Positions 13,651 through 60,664 of a stretch of DNA of 64,000 nt are shown here, piece by piece. This DNA comes from an uncultured bacterium (GTDB taxonomy: Bacteria; Bacillota_I; Bacilli_A; RFN20; CAG-826). The DNA is taken from contig CASFTG010000004.1 of the NCBI GenBank assembly GCA_949297805.1, positions 1 through 64,000 on the forward strand, written 5' to 3'. The notes under the pieces are model-generated. The model saw only the letters and a program-made list of their open reading frames with translations, was not told the DNA's origin and did not search any database. Position 1 is the stretch's first letter; every line of letters starts with the position of its first letter. A program made the translations under genes and the position numbers.

Positions 13651-13729
13651 GCAAAACGGGGCAAAAGGGCTCTAGAAAGCCGCGCAAAACGGGGCAGAAT
13701 GAATGGAATAAGTTTAGAAAAACGGGGCA
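13651..13729 (+). repeat. Three iteron-like repeats upstream of ATPase 13758 (period exactly 33 bp)
   Basis: GCAAAACGGGGCA occurs at 13651-13663 and 13684-13696, and GAAAAACGGGGCA at 13717-13729. The CGGGGCA cores start at 13657, 13690 and 13723, so both intervals are 33 bp. The last copy ends 2 nt before a TATATT -10 box (13732-13737). The layout is the same as at 4493 and 11196, but the repeat sequence is unrelated. Confidence 0.8.
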
Positions 13730-13757
13730 AATATATTGAAATATTCAGCAATAGTCG

Positions 13758-15098
13758 ATGGAATTCGGCAAGGTGGCAAAACCAGTGGAAAGATTTTGCG
13801 AAAAAACAATCAAAGAACGGATTAATTCCCTTGATAAAGACAAGAAAGCCTTATTGGTGCTTGGCGCTCGCCAAGTAGGAAAAACCTACACGATTCGCAA
13901 AGTCCTTTCCGATTTGAGAGTTCCGTGCTTCGAACTTAATTTCCTAAACCATCCTGAACAAGCTGCCTCCTTTTCTAGTCTCTATGACCCAAAGGAGATT
14001 GTCAGCCGTTTTTCTTTGCTTTCGCCAGCGCCCTTGATTAAAGGGCAATCGGTTATTTTCCTTGACGAAATCCAAGCTTGCCCATCGATGATAACCAAGA
14101 TTAAGTTTTTGGTTGAGGAGGGGTCGTATCGTTATGTCCTAAGCGGTTCGCTCTTAGGGGTGGAACTCGCTTCTGTTGAATCCTACCCGGTTGGCTATAT
14201 ATCCCAGTTGGATATGTTCCCCTTTACCTTTCTTGAATTTGCCAATGCCTATGGGCTAAGCGAACCGAAAATATCCCATCTTCGGGATTGTTTTGCCAAT
14301 CGCCACCCAGTTGAGCCTTCGGTTCATCAAGAGGTCTTGAACCTATTTCATTACTATCTTGGATGCGGCGGCATGCCGGAAGCGGATGTCGATTTCATCG
14401 CCAACAAGAATCTTAATTCCTTATATCGGCGCCAGAAAGATATTGTTTCGGCCTATAAAAAGGATTTCACTAAGTATGAGAGACTTGATCGCCGTTTGGA
14501 TATCATCTCGATTTACGACAATATTGCGACTCAGATTAACAAGCAGAACCGAAAATTCATTTTCACCTTGTTCAATAAGGAGATGAAGTTTGACCGGTAT
14601 GAGCATTCCTTTCTTTGGCTGGCGGAGGCCGGAGTCGCATACCCTTGCTACATAGCCAATGAAGTTCGATCGCCGATTGCCTTATCGAAGAAAAAGAATA
14701 ATTTCAAACTCTACTTAAATGACGTCGGGCTGCTGTTAACCGCTTTCCCCCGCCGGGACCGGGAGGCGATAATGATTGGTGGCGATAGTTCGATAAATAA
14801 AGGCGGTTTATATGAAAACTTTGTGGCTTCGATGCTCAGCGCCCGATCGATCCAGCCGTTTTACTATAAGGATAAGAATATCGGGGAGATCGATTTCTTA
14901 GTCGATACTTCCTTCGGCGTGACCGCGATCGAAGTCAAATCGGGGGCGGATTATGCCAAACATAAGGCCCTCGATAATCTAATGGCCAAATACCCTAATG
15001 TTGTCCCTCTCGTTTTGTCTGAAGCCAATCTCCATAATGATGGGGCGATATTCTATTGTCCGATCTATTTGGCGGAGTTGATTGAGAACGGGTGGTAA
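13758..15098 (+). CDS. AAA+ ATPase with DUF4143 domain (GARQVGKT subfamily)
   Basis: 446 residues. Walker A GARQVGKT is at about 35-42, Walker B VIFLDEIQ near 99-106, followed by LSGSLLGVEL. The DUF4143 part contains FKLYLNDVGLLL, and the nuclease-like end has GEIDFLV and AIEVKSGADY. No clear Shine-Dalgarno sequence precedes the ATG; the TATATT box at 13732-13737 would give a leader of only about 14 nt. Codon use is slightly more A/T-rich than in the 11358 copy. Stand-alone gene followed by a terminator. Confidence 0.85.
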   Translation: MEFGKVAKPVERFCEKTIKERINSLDKDKKALLVLGARQVGKTYTIRKVLSDLRVPCFELNFLNHPEQAASFSSLYDPKEIVSRFSLLSPAPLIKGQSVIFLDEIQACPSMITKIKFLVEEGSYRYVLSGSLLGVELASVESYPVGYISQLDMFPFTFLEFANAYGLSEPKISHLRDCFANRHPVEPSVHQEVLNLFHYYLGCGGMPEADVDFIANKNLNSLYRRQKDIVSAYKKDFTKYERLDRRLDIISIYDNIATQINKQNRKFIFTLFNKEMKFDRYEHSFLWLAEAGVAYPCYIANEVRSPIALSKKKNNFKLYLNDVGLLLTAFPRRDREAIMIGGDSSINKGGLYENFVASMLSARSIQPFYYKDKNIGEIDFLVDTSFGVTAIEVKSGADYAKHKALDNLMAKYPNVVPLVLSEANLHNDGAIFYCPIYLAELIENGW

Positions 15099-23521: not shown

Positions 23522-23565
23522 AACGTTATGCCTAGTGTCAGGCCTAAATCCCGTAAAACCTCGGG

Positions 23566-23618
23566 TTGAAACCCCGCCAACCTTCCGATTGGAATTCCGC
23601 CAACCTTCCGATTTGAAA
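23566..23618 (+). repeat. Repeat block with 23-bp period, possible orphan operator array
   Basis: CCGCCAACCTTCCGATT with flanking TTGAAA/TTGGAA occurs with CCGCCAA cores at 23574 and 23597 (23 bp apart); the TTGAAA flank appears a third time at about 23613. The 23-bp period equals that of the arrays in front of the GPKWCGKT-type ATPases at 31853 and 59222. A truncated ATPase of that type lies at 24753, so this may be its stranded operator. Confidence 0.5.
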
Positions 23619-23661
23619 TACTACAAGTGTACAAATAGTGCACATTTGATAATGAGTCAAA

Positions 23662-23995: not shown

Positions 23996-24607
23996 TTAAT
24001 GCAGCAGATCCTCAATGGTGCAGCACAAGGTTTTGGCTAAGGCATATAAGGTCTCCCCTTTGGCTTTCCAAAGGTATCGCCGGTCAGCCTCATAATAGTT
24101 GAGGGAACGGATATTGACCCCGCTTAGGCGGGAAAGCTGCTTTTTGGATAGTTGTCGGAGTTTCCGGTAATAGGTCAGTTTGTTCTTATTGGGGAGTTTG
24201 TCCTCGATCCATTTGGCGGTCTTGGACTCCGGGGCTTCGTGATAGGGGTGATAGATGCTGATTAAGGCGCTTAAGGGGACGGCTGTAAGTATTTTCTGGA
24301 ATGGGATATCCAGATACCACTGGGTATAAGCCAAGACCCAACCGGCCCAATACTCCGGGGTGCGGTCCATGCTGACCTGATTATAGGGGGCGTTTTGTTC
24401 AAGAATTTCGACCAGCATCTCAACCGCCGATTTGCCTGATAGGTAATTCGGATTCCCTTTCTCGATGGCGTTGGCGACAAAAGAGGCGGCGAACCTAGTT
24501 CCGATATCATCGGGATCCATCCCCATTGAGTTGATGGCGAGGTCGAATAAGTCCGCCAGGTTGCGCATGACGTCAGATAGATACACTTCATCGTAAGCGG
24601 GGATCAT
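23996..24607 (-). CDS. Helix-turn-helix (XRE-type) protein of a toxin-antitoxin-like module
   Basis: 203 residues. The C-terminal 65 residues form an XRE-type HTH (KLRQLSKKQLSRLSGVNIRS, then LNYYEADRR, ALAKTLCCTIEDLL). The N-terminal part (MRNLADLFDLAINSMGMDPD, WAGWVLAYTQWY) matches a pattern I recall from HTH proteins that follow DUF3791/DUF3990-type genes in gut Bacillota, thought to be toxin-antitoxin-like. Its start overlaps the end of an upstream remnant by 20 nt. GAGGAGG lies 11 nt before the ATG. Probably a DNA-binding antitoxin or autoregulator now missing most of its partner. Confidence 0.65.
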   Translation of the reverse strand: MIPAYDEVYLSDVMRNLADLFDLAINSMGMDPDDIGTRFAASFVANAIEKGNPNYLSGKSAVEMLVEILEQNAPYNQVSMDRTPEYWAGWVLAYTQWYLDIPFQKILTAVPLSALISIYHPYHEAPESKTAKWIEDKLPNKNKLTYYRKLRQLSKKQLSRLSGVNIRSLNYYEADRRYLWKAKGETLYALAKTLCCTIEDLLH

Positions 24608-24770
24608 TTTCTTCGATGCCTCCTCTTATGATGTCCATGAGGAAGATCCCGTCAAAGGGCTTTCCCTCCCGACTGTCCCGATAGGCCTTTCTCGCTTCTT
24701 CGTCCCGTTTTTTCCTAAGTGGATAAAAAACATCCTGCGGGGCGGGCTCCCGATGAATCTTGGCCTAAGC
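24588..24770 (-). pseudogene. C-terminal remnant of the partner gene of the HTH protein
   Basis: An open frame without a start codon runs into the HTH gene and overlaps it by 20 nt (KKRDEEARKAYRDSREGKPF, then DGIFLMDIIRGGIEENDP). The overlap is typical of coupled toxin-antitoxin partners. Its 5' end is cut off where the forward-strand ATPase fragment (24753) begins, so a rearrangement joined the two. Partner identity uncertain. Confidence 0.45.
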
Positions 24771-25484
24771 GAAGTTCAAGCCGCCAATAACCAAAACCCT
24801 TATTTCTATTCGTTGATTGAGGACTTAGAGACGGTCGATGAGGGCGACCGCGACCCTCGGAAATTAAGGCTGGTCTTACGAAGCTTAGCCCGGCATGAAA
24901 GCCAAACCTTAGCCAATGCCGAGATTAAAGAAGAGGTCTTTCGGAAAGACGGGGTCAACCTCGATATCGACACCGTCTCCATCTATCTTGAGGCGATGCG
25001 CTCTTTGTATATGATTGAGGAGATACCGAGCTTCGACCCCAAGTCATCGTTAAGGATCAGGCAACGCCCCTTACGCCATTTTGCTGACCCTTTCTTGCCG
25101 GTTAGTATCCTTCATCTCGATAAGCCTTCCTTAAGGCGGGATTCCCGTCTGTCGGGTCAACTATTCGCTTGTCTAGTCGAACGAGATCTTTTGACCTATG
25201 CCGATTGTTTCGATGGGAAGCTATTCCATTACGCCGATTACCGGAACCACTATATCGATGCCGTCATCGCCCTCCCTAATGGCGACTGGGTAGGCTTCAA
25301 TATCCTGCTGACCCCGGAGAATCTTGAGCGTTCCATCAAGAATCTTAAGTTGGCCAATAACGCCATCGTCCGCTCGGGTGGAAAGGGGGCGAGATCGTTA
25401 GGCGTCATCGTCGGGACCTTGAACCGGGCCTATCAACGGGAAGACGGGGTATACGTGATCCCCATCACTATGCTGAAGGACTGA
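24753..25484 (+). pseudogene. Truncated DUF4143 ATPase lacking the AAA+ domain
   Basis: 243 residues that align with the second half of the ATPase at 31853 (shared LVERDLLTYA, GKLFHY, IDAVI, KDGVYV-like segments). Walker A and B are missing altogether. The nuclease-like motif is also damaged: the intact copies have GIEIKLG or LVEIKLG, here it reads GFNILLT, so the Glu-x-Lys pair is lost. The 5' end abuts another truncated gene on the opposite strand. Best read as a dead fragment. The 23-bp-period block at 23566 may be its old upstream region. Confidence 0.75.
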
Positions 25485-30966: not shown

Positions 30967-31631
30967 TATTTCAACGCCGACGAATTAGCGAAAGCGACTG
31001 CCGAGCGGCTCAACGATCTTGACCGTGCTCGGATGGCGGTACCCCCGACCGACCGGCAGATCCGCCGGTATGTGAATACCATCAGCGAGGCCATTGTGTC
31101 AGTTGAGGCTCAACATTTCGAGGGATTCTATTTCCTGCATAAGCTCGGCTATACCAAGTTCTTTCGGCACGAGAAACAATTCGCCCCCATCGAAGGGGAA
31201 ACGCTCACCATCAATATCGAGGTGGACGAGGCGATGGAGCAGACCCTTCCTTTGATCCATTCCCTTCCTTATCGATATCGGGTATCGCCGGTGCGGGACG
31301 AATATGGCTATAGCCGGCATCGCCTCGTCCTCTTACCGATTTGGCTGGAGGAATGCCCGCCTCTGACTTGGCCGTTATGGGTTGATATAAGGGATCCGCA
31401 ATACGATAAATTGGTCCGTTTCGAGGCCTTGGCCGGCATGATGTCTGGGATCAGGAACTCGATGAATGGGAAGCCGAGTTGGATAAGAAGATGGCAATAG
31501 GGGAGCGGATCGGCCTCGCTACCATCATCGAGCGGCTCGGGATCGGGACGCCTAAAGCCCATCGGCTGTTTCTCCAGTTAAAGGCCAAAGGCAAAATCTA
31601 TTCGGCTTATCGGAAAAAGACGAGCGATTAA
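30967..31631 (+). pseudogene. 5'-truncated and frameshifted protein with a C-terminal winged-helix-like end
   Basis: The frame opens after a stop without a start codon (DELAKATAERLNDLDRARMA) and continues to about 31435, where the reading passes to the next frame and ends at 31631 (WDQELDEWEAELDKKMAIGE, then IERLGIGTPKAHRLFLQLKA). The end resembles the winged helix of FtsK-gamma-type domains. One missing base explains the break. The last 50 bp are duplicated beyond the following ATPase gene (33164-33212). Confidence 0.55.
31563..31612 (+). repeat. Left direct repeat flanking the 31853 ATPase
   Basis: CGGCTGTTTCTCCAGTTAAA and the next 30 bp recur at 33164-33212 with about six mismatches and one gap. 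The left copy is inside the winged-helix end of the broken gene; the right copy has no gene around it. The 1.55 kb between them hold exactly the repeat array and the ATPase gene. Confidence 0.7.
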
Positions 31632-31635
31632 AAAC

Positions 31636-31801
31636 TGTCTTGTTGAAAATCAAAAATCTCTCCTATTGAAAATCGAAAAACCCTCCTATTGATTTTCGAG
31701 AAAACGTCATATTAGATTTTGTAAAAGTCTCCTATTGAAAATCAAAAATCTTTCCTGCCAAAAAAAGATAATTTCTCCTGTTACAATTGCTATTGCCTCT
31801 T
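31636..31801 (+). repeat. Seven iteron-like repeats with exact 23-bp period upstream of ATPase 31853
   Basis: CTATTGAAAATCAAAAATC-like units are anchored at 31641, 31664, 31687, 31710, 31733, 31756 and 31779, every interval exactly 23 bp. Units 1, 2 and 5 are almost identical, 3 and 4 have an inverted inner part (GATTTTCG), and 6 and 7 are decayed (TGCCAAAAAAAG, TGTTACAATT). The array ends where a weak promoter begins (TTAAAC 31800-31805, 18 bp, TAGAAT 31824-31829). It is not coding. Fixed phase and position suggest cooperative binding of one protein. Confidence 0.85.
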
Positions 31802-31852
31802 AAACCGCCTAAAATTAACATCGTAGAATGCGTTCTTGGCATTGGAGGACTA

Positions 31853-33130
31853 ATGATGAAATTGAGCAATTATAAACCTCGAATAATTGACAAAACCCTC
31901 TCGTTTTATTTAAAAACCTTTGGAGCGGTTTTGATTGTTGGTCCTAAATGGTGTGGCAAAACGTGGACGGGACGGAACGCTTGTCGAAGCCAATTTATGC
32001 TTTCGGATTCGACTGGTAATTTTAATAATCGCCAAATGGCTATGCTCAATCCCGATTTCGCTTTGTCCGGCCGGCTGCCGCGACTAATCGATGAATGGCA
32101 AGAAGTGCCCTCGATTTGGGATGCGGTCCGTAATAGGGTCGACCAAAATCCCGCAAAAGGACAATTCGTCCTCACTGGTTCAACGGTGGTCGACCGGTCG
32201 AAATACCTCCATTCAGGTACCGGAAGGATCGCCCAATTAAGGATGCGGACGATGTCTTTGTTCGAATCGGGCGATTCGGATGGGCAGGTCTCGCTTGAAG
32301 ATATTTGTCTTGGGCAAGCGAAAGATGTTCTCACTGGGGAAGTATCTCTCAGTCGATTGTTGGATTATATCATCGCCGGGGGCTTCCCAGCCCGGCTAGG
32401 TTTAGATATTAAACAATCCCGCGCAATCGCCAACAGCTATATCGAGGCAGTCATCAATGAGGACATTTACCGAGTCGACGACGTCAAAAGAGACGGGGAG
32501 AAGGTTAGGCTGTTGCTGAAATCCCTGGCTCGGAATGAAGCGACGACGGCGAGCAACGCAACCCTAAAAAGGGATATCCAGGATAAAGATAGGGACGATA
32601 TTAATATAAACACCCTCACCGATTATCTTAATTTGCTCAAAAGGCTCTATCTAATCGAGGATATCCCGCCTTTTGGGGCGAGTATCCGTTCATCGTTGCG
32701 GGTTAAGCAAAGCGCGAAACGCCATTTCGTCGATCCCTCCTTGCCTTCGGCGGTCTTAGGCCTGACCCCGCAGCATTTAAAGAAAGACCTTTCGCTCGCT
32801 GGGTTCTTATTCGAATCCTTGGTCGAAAGGGATTTGCTGACCTATGCCGAGTCATTTGGCGGTAAATTGTTCCATTACCAGGACTACAAGAATAACGAGA
32901 TCGACGCGGTCATCGAATTAGAGGATGGCGAGTGGTGCGGGATCGAGATCAAGCTCGGGGCCCATCAGATCGAAGAGGCGGCTCATAACCTTTTGCGAAT
33001 CAATGAGCTCATCAAGGAAGAGGGAGGGAAGCCAGCCAAATCATTATTCGTCATCTGCGGGCTTTCTAACGCGGCCTATACCCGGAAAGACGGGGTCTAT
33101 GTGGCCCCGATCACCTCGTTAAGGGAATGA
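31853..33130 (+). CDS. AAA+ ATPase with DUF4143 domain (GPKWCGKT subfamily)
   Basis: 425 residues. Walker A GPKWCGKTWTG is at about 28-38, RLIDEWQ as the Walker B equivalent (about 78-84), FVLTGS sensor-like motif, and the family's GTGRIAQLRMRTMSLFESGD. The DUF4143 part has RHFVDPSLP and LVERDLLTYA; the nuclease-like end has NEIDAVI and GIEIKLG, intact. A frame 22 codons longer exists upstream, but TTGGAGGA just before the ATG at 31853 fixes the start and leaves the repeat array non-coding. Same subfamily as 59222 and the fragment at 24753. Confidence 0.85.
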   Translation: MMKLSNYKPRIIDKTLSFYLKTFGAVLIVGPKWCGKTWTGRNACRSQFMLSDSTGNFNNRQMAMLNPDFALSGRLPRLIDEWQEVPSIWDAVRNRVDQNPAKGQFVLTGSTVVDRSKYLHSGTGRIAQLRMRTMSLFESGDSDGQVSLEDICLGQAKDVLTGEVSLSRLLDYIIAGGFPARLGLDIKQSRAIANSYIEAVINEDIYRVDDVKRDGEKVRLLLKSLARNEATTASNATLKRDIQDKDRDDININTLTDYLNLLKRLYLIEDIPPFGASIRSSLRVKQSAKRHFVDPSLPSAVLGLTPQHLKKDLSLAGFLFESLVERDLLTYAESFGGKLFHYQDYKNNEIDAVIELEDGEWCGIEIKLGAHQIEEAAHNLLRINELIKEEGGKPAKSLFVICGLSNAAYTRKDGVYVAPITSLRE

Positions 33131-33163: not shown

Positions 33164-33212
33164 CGGCTGTTTCTCCAACTAAAAGCCAAAGGCAAATCTG
33201 TTCGGCCTATCG
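33164..33212 (+). repeat. Right direct repeat flanking the 31853 ATPase
   Basis: Diverged second copy of 31563-31612 (CGGCTGTTTCTCCAACTAAA and onward), 34 nt after the ATPase stop. Its reading frame is interrupted, so it is a relic. Confidence 0.7.
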
Positions 33213-33223
33213 CCCAGATAGCT

Positions 33224-34564
33224 TTAACGGATAACCTCCCAATAACCGGTCTTGTTTGAACCGACCCTTCGGATATACCCGTTTTCGATCAAGGAGGCGA
33301 TGGCTCGCTGAACGGTCCGAATTGACTTATGGCTTTTCTTGGCCAGTTCGGCCTTATTGAGATGAAGGTTGCTTTTGATGAACCGATAGACCGCTTCTTC
33401 AATCGCGGTTAATTTTGACTCCGTCCCCTCCTCCTTTATTTCCTCGGGCTCCGATCCCGGCCGGAGGAAGGCGAAGAAGAAGCCGATCGCGTCTTTCCGA
33501 TAGGTCCAGCGGATCCCTTTTTCTTGGCAGAGTTCATCCATCCGTTGGAAACCGGTCCCCGATTTCTCAACGTCTTTGCTCCGGAATAAGACATCTAGCA
33601 TCAGCTTGTTTCTCTTATAGGAAGGGATATTCCGCCTTATGAAATCATAAGGGGTCAGTTCGAAAGGGAAGGTCCCGGGATTGGATATCTCAATGGAATC
33701 GGGGTGAATCCCAATCTCGATCTCCGGCCAGGTTTCATAGTCGGCATGGGCAAAAGCATTGGCCACCATCTCCCGGATGGCTTCCTTTGGTATCTCTGGT
33801 ACTTCCTCCCGTTTCCGTTCCCTGATCTCCACCCGCCAGGAGATTCGAGAAAGGATGTAATTCAAGGCCTCGTCGATCAGGCGGTAGACGTTGCCGGTCA
33901 TTAACTTTAAATCGAGGATGGTGACTTTGTTGCCACTAGCATAGGTCGTGAGCTTTAAGCCGACCTCAGTATCTTTCCCGAATAAGGCGTAGCCCCCGTT
34001 ATTGAGGTATCCGCCTTGGGATAGCTCGAGCATCGTGAGGAGCTTATCCTCGTCGTATGGCTTCATTTCCTCGAACCTCCCGCAGGAGATGGCGCTTTGG
34101 TAGAAATCGTAGAGGGCGTCTTTATCGATATCCTCGATTCGACGGTCAGTCATCTCGAGTTCCCATTTTGAGGCATAGTCGGCGTTATTGATCAGCCTTT
34201 TCAATTCCTCCCCGGACATCCGCCGGTTTTCCGTCCCTTTCCTGATTAGATAACGGCCCTCGACAGAGTAGGGCCGGTTATGGCCAGCGAAGCTGACTTT
34301 GATGACGTCCTTCCCTTCGATCGATAAGACGTCGAGGTTGAAGCTGAAACTCGGCTCGATGGCTTCGCTTAAGGTCCGGGAGATATCGCGTTTGGTTCTG
34401 TCGGATATCATCTGCCCTTTGACGTAGCCATGGTCATCGATCCCAAAATAGAGGGTTCCCTTGGCGTGCTTATTCAAAATGGCGGCGATGGCTTCGGCCG
34501 CCTGAGGTTTCTCAGCGGTTGAAAGAACGAATTCGATCTGTTCGCTTTCGCTGCCGATAATCAT
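33224..34564 (-). CDS. AlbA_2-domain transcriptional regulator with ATPase-like and winged-helix domains
   Basis: 446 residues. N-terminal AlbA_2 (Schlafen-like putative DNA-binding) domain: SEQIEFVLS, then FGIDDHGYVKG and the RYLIRKGTENRRMS pattern (about 105-118). A GHKL/HATPase_c_4-like middle part follows (IREMVANAFAHADY, about 270-283; DVEKSGTGFQRMDELC, about 335-350), then a C-terminal winged helix (LNKAELAKKSHKSIRTVQRA). GAGGGAT precedes the ATG. Such proteins are common regulators of unknown ligand in anaerobes. Repeats in its upstream region (34619-34724) resemble the operator arrays of the ATPase genes in style. Confidence 0.8.
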   Translation of the reverse strand: MIIGSESEQIEFVLSTAEKPQAAEAIAAILNKHAKGTLYFGIDDHGYVKGQMISDRTKRDISRTLSEAIEPSFSFNLDVLSIEGKDVIKVSFAGHNRPYSVEGRYLIRKGTENRRMSGEELKRLINNADYASKWELEMTDRRIEDIDKDALYDFYQSAISCGRFEEMKPYDEDKLLTMLELSQGGYLNNGGYALFGKDTEVGLKLTTYASGNKVTILDLKLMTGNVYRLIDEALNYILSRISWRVEIRERKREEVPEIPKEAIREMVANAFAHADYETWPEIEIGIHPDSIEISNPGTFPFELTPYDFIRRNIPSYKRNKLMLDVLFRSKDVEKSGTGFQRMDELCQEKGIRWTYRKDAIGFFFAFLRPGSEPEEIKEEGTESKLTAIEEAVYRFIKSNLHLNKAELAKKSHKSIRTVQRAIASLIENGYIRRVGSNKTGYWEVIR

Positions 34565-34618
34565 GGTTGATCCCTCTAGGGTAATAGTAATCTATTCAAC
34601 CTCGAATGTCTAGATACA

Positions 34619-34724
34619 TGGCTTGATAAAATGGCTGGATAAAATGCAATAAGCATTATTTATCTATCGAATGTTTTCTTATATTTGAGACATCGAGTTG
34701 TATAATGAATTTGGCTCGATAAAA
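34619..34724. repeat. TGGCT-GATAAAA repeats upstream of the AlbA_2 gene
   Basis: TGGCTTGATAAAA (34619-34631), TGGCTGGATAAAA (34632-34644) and TGGCTCGATAAAA (34712-34724), plus the related CGAATGT at about 34605 and 34669. The first two are head to tail (13 bp). They lie 55-160 nt upstream of the reverse-strand start. Likely operator sites; a forward TATAAT at 34701-34706 also lies among them. Confidence 0.6.
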
Positions 34725-59221: not shown

Positions 59222-60481
59222 TTAATCCTTAAGGCACGATAAGGGGACGACGTAGACGCTATCCGCTCGCCTGTAAGCGTAATCGCCTATCCCGACCAAT
59301 ACCATTAGGAAGGAAGGGGATTTCATGGCCTCGGTGTCGATTTTGCTTGATAGCTTCTTAAGGGCACTCGCCCCTTCCTCAATCGCTTTCTCGCCGCCGA
59401 GCTTGATTTCGACCAGGCCATAACCTCCGTTTCTTAGATGGATCACGGCATCGCATTCGAGCCCGGTTTTGTCCCGGTAATGGTAGACGGTACCGTTTAG
59501 CGCGTCGGCATAGACGCGTAGATCCCGGATGGCCATGGTTTCGAATAGAAGGCCGAAGGTGTGGGGGTCATCGATTAAATCGGCTGGCCCGATGCCTAAG
59601 GCCGCCGCGGCGATCGAGGGATCGGCGAAATAGCGGGTATCGGACGTCCGAATCGCCGTTTTCGAACGCAGATTGGGGTTCCAGGCCGGCATATCCTCAA
59701 TGACGAACATGTTCCTTAGGGCCGCTAGGTATTTTTCGAGCGTGCTCTCGTCGATGCGGCTTTGCATATCGGCCTTAAGGGTGGCGATCGAGGCTTGGCT
59801 CCCTTGGTTTCTGGCGTAGGCGCGGAAAAGTCTTTTGGTCCGATCGGGGTCGCGTTCCACGCGCTTGAACCGGCCTAAATCCTGGTGGATGACGGCGTCG
59901 AGGTAATCCGGGGCTTGAGCGAGGGCGATTTCCTCTTCCATATCGATCGAAGCGGGCCAGCCGCCCCGGCAAGCCAAGAAAGCGATGTCCAGCAAACTGA
60001 CGGGTTTGAACCCGCTTATCGATTCGGGCCGATCGAACATTTCGGCAAGGCTTACTTCCCCGGTCGATTCCTTCGATTCGTATAAGCTCATCGTCCGCAT
60101 CCTTAACCACCCGAATCGCCCGGTGCCGCTATGGTGGATCGAGTCGGTTGCCTCCGGGACGGAAGAGCCGGTTAAGATGAACTGACCCATTTTCCGGCGA
60201 TGATCGACTTCGAATCGGATGGCATCCCATAGCTTAGGCGCTAGCTGCCATTCATCGATAAGCCGAGGGGCGGGGCCATTCAAAACCTCGGCGGGGCTTA
60301 GGTCCGCCAACTGGAGATAGGGCTGATAGGGGTCGTCTAAGCGGATGACGCTTTTCGCCGTCTGCTCGGCCGTGGTCGTTTTGCCGCACCATTTCGGCCC
60401 TTCGATCAAAACCGCCCCCTTAGCCTTCAAGCGCTTTGCCAGTATTTTGTCGGCGATTCTCTCTTTATAAAATTCCGTCAT
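59222..60481 (-). CDS. AAA+ ATPase with DUF4143 domain (GPKWCGKT subfamily)
   Basis: 419 residues. Walker A GPKWCGKTTTA is at about 28-38, RLIDEWQLAP as the Walker B equivalent (about 73-82), FILTGSSVP, and SGTGRFGWLRMRTMSLYESK. DUF4143 part: TRYFADPSIA, TMAIRDLRVYADAL. Nuclease-like end: LECDAVI (Cys in place of the usual first Glu/Ile) and LVEIKLGGE, intact. Clear paralogue of 31853. GGAG precedes the ATG; promoter and 23-bp-period array lie upstream. Confidence 0.85.
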   Translation of the reverse strand: MTEFYKERIADKILAKRLKAKGAVLIEGPKWCGKTTTAEQTAKSVIRLDDPYQPYLQLADLSPAEVLNGPAPRLIDEWQLAPKLWDAIRFEVDHRRKMGQFILTGSSVPEATDSIHHSGTGRFGWLRMRTMSLYESKESTGEVSLAEMFDRPESISGFKPVSLLDIAFLACRGGWPASIDMEEEIALAQAPDYLDAVIHQDLGRFKRVERDPDRTKRLFRAYARNQGSQASIATLKADMQSRIDESTLEKYLAALRNMFVIEDMPAWNPNLRSKTAIRTSDTRYFADPSIAAAALGIGPADLIDDPHTFGLLFETMAIRDLRVYADALNGTVYHYRDKTGLECDAVIHLRNGGYGLVEIKLGGEKAIEEGASALKKLSSKIDTEAMKSPSFLMVLVGIGDYAYRRADSVYVVPLSCLKD

Positions 60482-60501
60482 CTTTGTTCTCCGTTGAGGG
60501 T

Positions 60502-60538: not shown

Positions 60539-60596
60539 TCGGTAATTTGGACAAAAGATTTTCGGTAATTTGGCCATAATATTTTCGGTAATTTGG
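60539..60596 (-). repeat. Three iteron-like repeats with exact 23-bp period upstream of ATPase 59222
   Basis: TCGGTAATTTGG (forward-strand reading) starts at 60539, 60562 and 60585, both intervals 23 bp. The A/T-rich 11-bp spacers are only loosely alike, so the 12-bp core is the conserved part. The array sits just upstream of the -35, as in the sister gene at 31853, but the repeat sequence is different. Confidence 0.8.
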
Positions 60597-60664
60597 CGAA
60601 TCGAATGTTTTTCGAGGGTGCAGCGGCAGCCAATGCAACCTAATGGTTTTCGCGGTTTCTGTTT

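Follow-up and report, generated by a model that had tools for sequence, protein, structure and literature searches.

A phase-locked 23-bp repeat array as a probable private operator of a STAND-type ATPase-nuclease gene

Results

The window analyzed here, a stretch of 64,000 nucleotides from contig CASFTG010000004.1 of an uncultured CAG-826 bacterium (assembly GCA_949297805.1), carries seven tandem repeats directly in front of a gene at 31853 whose product joins the Pfam domains AAA_14 and DUF4143. An initial annotation, made from the letters of the window alone, had pointed to the repeats and to their exact step of 23 base pairs (bp). We followed the array, its gene and their relatives across genomes by computational evidence throughout. 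The locus is laid out as follows.

31636..31796, forward strand: operator-like array of seven 23-bp units, with core TCTCCTATTGA, a variable spacer and an A-rich block; 0 of 1000 shuffles reach its score
31787..31792, forward strand: candidate -35 box TTGCTA within unit 7, separated from the -10 box by 17 bp and placed by consensus only
31797..31819, forward strand: eighth in-phase slot, placed by arithmetic, with no clear unit; the -10 box and the greater part of the promoter spacer fall in it
31810..31815, forward strand: candidate -10 box TAAAAT, at position 13 of the in-phase slot, as is typical of the family
31853..33130, forward strand: predicted AAA_14 and DUF4143 ATPase-nuclease (Pfam), 425 amino acids, ATG start, PDC-S01-like, of the 23-bp clade
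31940..31963, forward strand: Walker A motif GPKWCGKT, residues 30-37; G30, G35 and K36 are invariant in 61 sequences
32495..32728, forward strand: predicted winged helix-turn-helix, residues ~215-292, at the WHD position of a STAND NOD module (AlphaFold2 model, mean predicted local distance difference test score, pLDDT, 93.9)
32606..32644, forward strand: predicted recognition helix, residues 252-264 (AlphaFold2 model); residue 253 follows the array core more closely than any other column
32897..32953, forward strand: PD-(D/E)XK nuclease motif, E349-x-D351 ... E365-x-K367; D351, E365 and K367 are invariant and E349 nearly so in 61 sequences

The 23-mers start at 31636, 31659, 31682, 31705, 31728, 31751 and 31774, with no drift. 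The best lag is 23, with a score of 31.2 against a maximum of 15.2 among 1000 first-order shuffles scored over all lags from 12 to 79, and Tandem Repeats Finder and a separate repeat search agree. The core CTCCTATTGA is common to units 2, 3 and 5, units 1 and 4 have diverged, and the promoter-proximal units 6 (TTTCCTGCC) and 7 (TCTCCTGTTAC) are somewhat decayed and still in register. The exact step, and its persistence in the two decayed units, are thus as first described. Elsewhere in its own genome the unit core of the window occurs at chance level only.

Units were aligned by circular registration, with no use of protein information. They share a loose plan of an A-rich block, a variable core around CCGAATG and a weakly conserved spacer. 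Since neighboring units agree at 73-97% at positions 17 to 8 and at 56-74% at positions 9-16, each unit appears from its sequence to comprise a footprint of ~14 bp and a spacer whose length counts above its letters. This bears on the two units described as having an inverted inner part. The change is present, GAAAATC of the array becoming GATTTTC in unit 3 and GATTTTG in unit 4, but it occupies register positions 9-16, and because these are weakly conserved inside arrays of the 23-bp clade it is probably neutral spacer variation.

Loci similar to the window protein were then drawn from 84,980 species genomes and viral contigs, giving 86 scorable loci of the 23-bp clade, one viral locus being counted twice. 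They come from Clostridia, Bacilli, Bacteroidota, Spirochaetota, Actinomycetota and methanogenic archaea. The best lag is 23 in 65 of the 86 and 46 in 8, with 2 at other lags and none at 22 or 24. When sister genomes of the genus were searched with the window protein, 24 scorable genes of this clade were found (lag 23 in 17, lag 46 in 3), and the step is again 23 in all four genes from named plasmids, those of Collinsella aerofaciens ATCC 25986, Bacteroides ovatus, B. uniformis pBUN1 and Prosthecochloris aestuarii DSM 271. The longest 23-bp array seen, ~ten nearly identical units, lies upstream of the gene in a Clostridiales member (locus L146). A pair of archaeal orthologs (L145 and L135, 97% identical) differs by exactly one 23-bp unit, the whole-unit change with phase retained that the initial annotation had taken as a mark of a functional array.

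Other DUF4143 clades provide the comparison. A second clade, surveyed within one genus plus five viral contigs, has a step of 32-34 bp or its double in 106 of 121 genes of the genus, with a mode of 33. Within the same genomes, 17 of 20 genes of a third, canonical clade have no array and the remaining three show other lags. The 1.65-Mb host genome holds 24 DUF4143 matches, ~17 of them with an upstream array of their own; the array sequence differs for each gene, and the step is 23 in one group and ~33 in another. Among 225 control windows, each 300 bp long and drawn from other parts of the loci surveyed, none gave lag 23, 46 or 33. From the clade controls and these control windows we therefore conclude that the step goes with the protein clade, and that neither the organism nor AT-rich DNA accounts for it. 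Selection on spacing, as originally suggested, is borne out in that the 23-bp step is kept across phyla as unit sequences diverge; the suggestion needs the qualification that sequence is selected too, within the ~14-bp footprint and in a core that tracks the recognition helix. A shared host regulator was also considered as the reader of the arrays. It was rejected on three grounds: the units are private to each gene, the step is set by clade, and the core covaries with the protein. Paralogs of one genome carry different units, which one regulator common to the host would not produce.

The protein encoded behind the array exceeds the Pfam cut-offs for AAA_14 (45 bits) and DUF4143 (105 bits), and its residues 5-423 match the PADLOC model PDC-S01 (E 2.3e-62). 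A profile search by sequence found no solved homologue. In structure comparison (VIA-align), residues 1 to ~304 match the STAND NOD module (NBD-HD-WHD), with Z scores of 14.6 for 2qen, 13.2 for 2fna and, over residues 2-313, 11-12 for plant NLRs; CED-4, Apaf-1 and EfAvs5 are also among the matches. By sequence and model, we take the protein to be a STAND-type ATPase (NBD-HD-winged-helix) fused to a predicted PD-(D/E)XK nuclease. Helix 252-264 is modeled as the second helix of the helix-turn-helix and is followed by the wing.

It is this helix that covaries with the array. Among 92 proteins, similarity of the unit core beyond overall protein similarity is best explained by residues 246-260. Residue-pair correlations over all sequence pairs were noisy and were replaced by 44 disjoint sister pairs, which lessen phylogenetic dependence, though some remains. 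Here residue 253 comes first among 353 variable columns, and segment 252-260 first among all segments (r 0.65, max-statistic permutation p<1/2000), and the helix signal stays at or near first place over varied choices of pairs. The same pair test gives no covariation signal at spacer and A-block positions. A register-free distance over whole units again puts this helix first, with a weaker signal (p=0.09). Residue 253 has an apparent code, with D going with CCGAAT or CGGAAT, E with CGGATT, K with CCAAT, and N with CTGAAT or CACAAT. In the 33-bp clade, whose sequences and numbering differ, the best segment is 265-273, inside a cluster at 262-277 (p=0.0015), and corresponds to the turn and the start of the equivalent helix, 274-282, in a model of moderate confidence (pLDDT 77.6). 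As far as sequence and models go, the two clades point to one structural element.

The arrays also keep a phase with the promoter. Of 36 loci with a strong -10 box, 24 have the start of that box at unit position 12-14 (p=1.5e-13), and this holds for both layouts, in which the last unit either lies between the -35 and -10 boxes or ends one period earlier. A TAnnTTTG -7 box falls at the same phase in 5 of 7 Bacteroidota loci. In the window, the automatic scan took TACAAT in unit 7 as the -10 box and placed the locus among the off-phase ones; the box at 31810 was chosen by hand because of its 17-bp spacing to TTGCTA. Because strong -10 boxes share one unit position, the array looks like a set of operators laid in register with the core promoter.

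Only four arrays with a step of 20-40 bp and comparable strength occur in the window (at 31630, 60539, 23546 and 13651), and all four precede DUF4143 genes or a DUF4143 remnant. Those other than the array at the ATPase gene are listed here.

60539..60597, reverse strand: second 23-bp array (GCCAAATTACCGAAAATATTATG), belonging to the paralog at 59225-60484 (reverse strand)
23546..23626, forward strand: third 23-bp array (CCGCCAACCTTCCGATTGGAATT), preceding a broken DUF4143 gene whose remnant lies at 24753-25484
13651..13743, forward strand: array with a 33-bp step, preceding the 33-type paralog at 13758-15098

The unit of the array at 23546 is the same as that of the intact G024 gene (locus L040). 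Of the broken gene behind it, only the C-terminal part is left, its N-terminal half being replaced by a stretch with a reverse-strand open reading frame (ORF) at 23996-24607. The 77-kb contig that holds the window carries eight of the 24 DUF4143 genes of the genome, fragments included and three clades represented, a crowding that makes an island possible. Around the main array and its gene, a 33-nucleotide direct repeat (91%) stands on both sides, at 31563-31595 and 33164-33196, as if the array and gene had been inserted as a module, duplicating the end of the upstream ORF; in the sister genome G030 the downstream copy spans 105 bp. Beyond it, a 13-bp tandem repeat (2.2 copies, 34618-34646) lies just upstream of an SLFN/AlbA_2-type ATP-binding gene (33224-34564, reverse strand), and genes of this type might have arrays of their own.

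Discussion

The association of gene and array, the clade-specific step, the covariation and the promoter phase are each well supported by sequence comparison. We consider it likely that these repeats form a private operator array, which the ATPase encoded behind them would read cooperatively so as to repress its own promoter. The ATPase very probably binds its own array, the covariation of array core and recognition helix in two clades giving strong though indirect support from sequence. Autorepression by the ATPase and lateral contacts between protomers that set the pitch are both fairly likely. The multimeric DNA-binding protein put forward in the initial annotation was the right idea, and is most likely the ATPase itself, whose polymerization we infer.

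In the model that we propose, where direct contact, cooperativity and repression are what we infer, the winged helix would bind the core of each unit through helix 252-264. Protein-protein geometry would hold neighboring protomers 23 bp apart, or 33 bp in the sister clade, and this fixed spacing would let the array fill cooperatively. A filled array would block transcription, the next in-phase slot being the core promoter, and keep the gene low. Derepression could follow if the protein were recruited elsewhere or switched, as might happen in phage infection. The sole ground for regarding a defence role of the nuclease as plausible is the status of PDC-S01 as a defence candidate (PMC12988326, PMC13356809).

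Several observations weigh against this model. No significant array was found in 11 of the 86 loci of the 23-bp clade, a few arrays contain 1-bp slips (L123, L167), and other lags occur in L041 and L153. In G030, the array of the sister gene (95% identical to the gene of the window) is one unit shorter and has lost 1 bp, which leaves one 22-bp step, so a phase-breaking indel beside an intact gene, which the initial annotation would have held against a functional array, was seen once, in weak form. The phase is strong, not absolute, and single slips are tolerated. For the 33-bp clade, the structure model is only moderate and units could not be put in one register for promoter phase. Covariation could in principle run through a third partner, although none is consistently encoded alongside in the loci viewed.

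It is conceivable, though on balance unlikely, that the array is a loading or assembly platform for a store of inactive or poised nuclease, with transcription control secondary. The STAND/NOD fold shared with 2qen, 2fna, NLRs, CED-4 and Apaf-1 would suit such a platform. In NLRs and Apaf-1 the winged-helix domain is a switch, and because the same domain carries the DNA-reading signature here, a coupling of DNA binding and activity switch is suggested for this family. The 23- and 33-bp steps differ by about one helical turn and leave similar angular offsets (~70 and ~50 degrees at 10.5 bp per turn), and up to ~10 units, as in L146, exceed what repression needs. However, many arrays have only two or three units, and the promoter phase lock and the place right before the start codon favor transcription control. 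One tentative form of the idea makes the winged-helix switch domain the DNA reader and the array a nucleation ladder, which would seat protomers at intervals of 23 or 33 bp, equal to two or three helical turns and a similar remaining twist. The nuclease assembly so formed would be inactive but poised, and would silence its gene as well. If so, the releasing trigger would arm the nuclease and raise its synthesis together.

Transcription activation, in which a protein bound upstream would touch RNA polymerase from an in-phase position, the last unit being just before the -35 box, is improbable. In many loci, the one in the window among them, the last clear unit does end 3-7 bp before the -35 box and in phase, which makes activation possible there. 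Yet in the second class the last unit lies between the -35 and -10 boxes, a place from which bound protein would be expected, more simply, to obstruct polymerase, and near-consensus -10 boxes are common in both classes.

There is very little chance that the array is iteron- or centromere-like and serves replication or partition of a mobile element. Winged-helix initiators on iterons of 22-23 bp form a known architecture, the structure matches include Orc1/Cdc6, and some of the genes lie on plasmids. But genomes here carry some two dozen DUF4143 genes each, most of which have a separate array, and the array is always at the gene's own promoter, in front of a protein with a conserved nuclease motif. 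Plain tandem-duplication noise or a satellite can be ruled out for practical purposes: slippage has clearly altered unit numbers, but the sequences are private and covary with the protein, and the step is fixed by clade across bacteria and archaea and absent from control windows.

Beyond the model of a self-read private operator, each array shows where its protein is likely to bind. It may thus supply the natural DNA substrate of that protein, the basis for a reporter assay and, at residue 253, an apparent specificity code. The family as a whole would give very many natural protein-site pairs from which winged-helix recognition could be learned, and its arrays appear to show cleanly how selection acts on the pitch of an assembly bound to DNA.

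The order NBD-HD-winged-helix is shared with the STAND ATPases (archaeal SSO1545 and PABY2304, NLRs, CED-4/Apaf-1, Avs); the family studied here differs in having a winged helix that, by its signature, reads DNA sequence-specifically, and a nuclease at the C-terminus as its effector. Plasmid initiators that bind iterons (RepA, RepE, Pi) combine phased direct repeats of 22-23 bp, winged helices and autoregulation. In contrast, the family studied here gives no sign of a replication role, is mostly chromosomal and has many private arrays per genome.

The closest named relative is PDC-S01, a PADLOC candidate system of an ATPase and a PD-(D/E)XK nuclease (PMC12988326), which the window protein and its 33-type paralogs match over full length (E 2e-62 to 7e-172). 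Rumen and archaeal genomes carry it very frequently (PMC13356809, PMC12988326), and it is reported as the fourth commonest defence system across all prokaryotes (PMC12988326), with the defence role of the family at candidate status. In the open-access literature, where a single paper mentions DUF4143, we found neither a mechanism for PDC-S01 nor an earlier description of an upstream array, DNA reading or regulation of PDC-S01/DUF4143 genes. The nearest documented analogue is RptR, the autorepressor of a Type I restriction-modification defence island, which binds direct repeats at the -10 box of its own promoter (PMC12255303). Repeats at the own promoter are common to both, as is a link to phage defence, which for PDC-S01 is that of a candidate. 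RptR, however, is a separate 9-kDa homodimer that reads three 9-bp repeats with one conserved palindromic site, whereas here the effector itself is likely the reader, the steps are 23 or 33 bp and the sequences are private to each gene.
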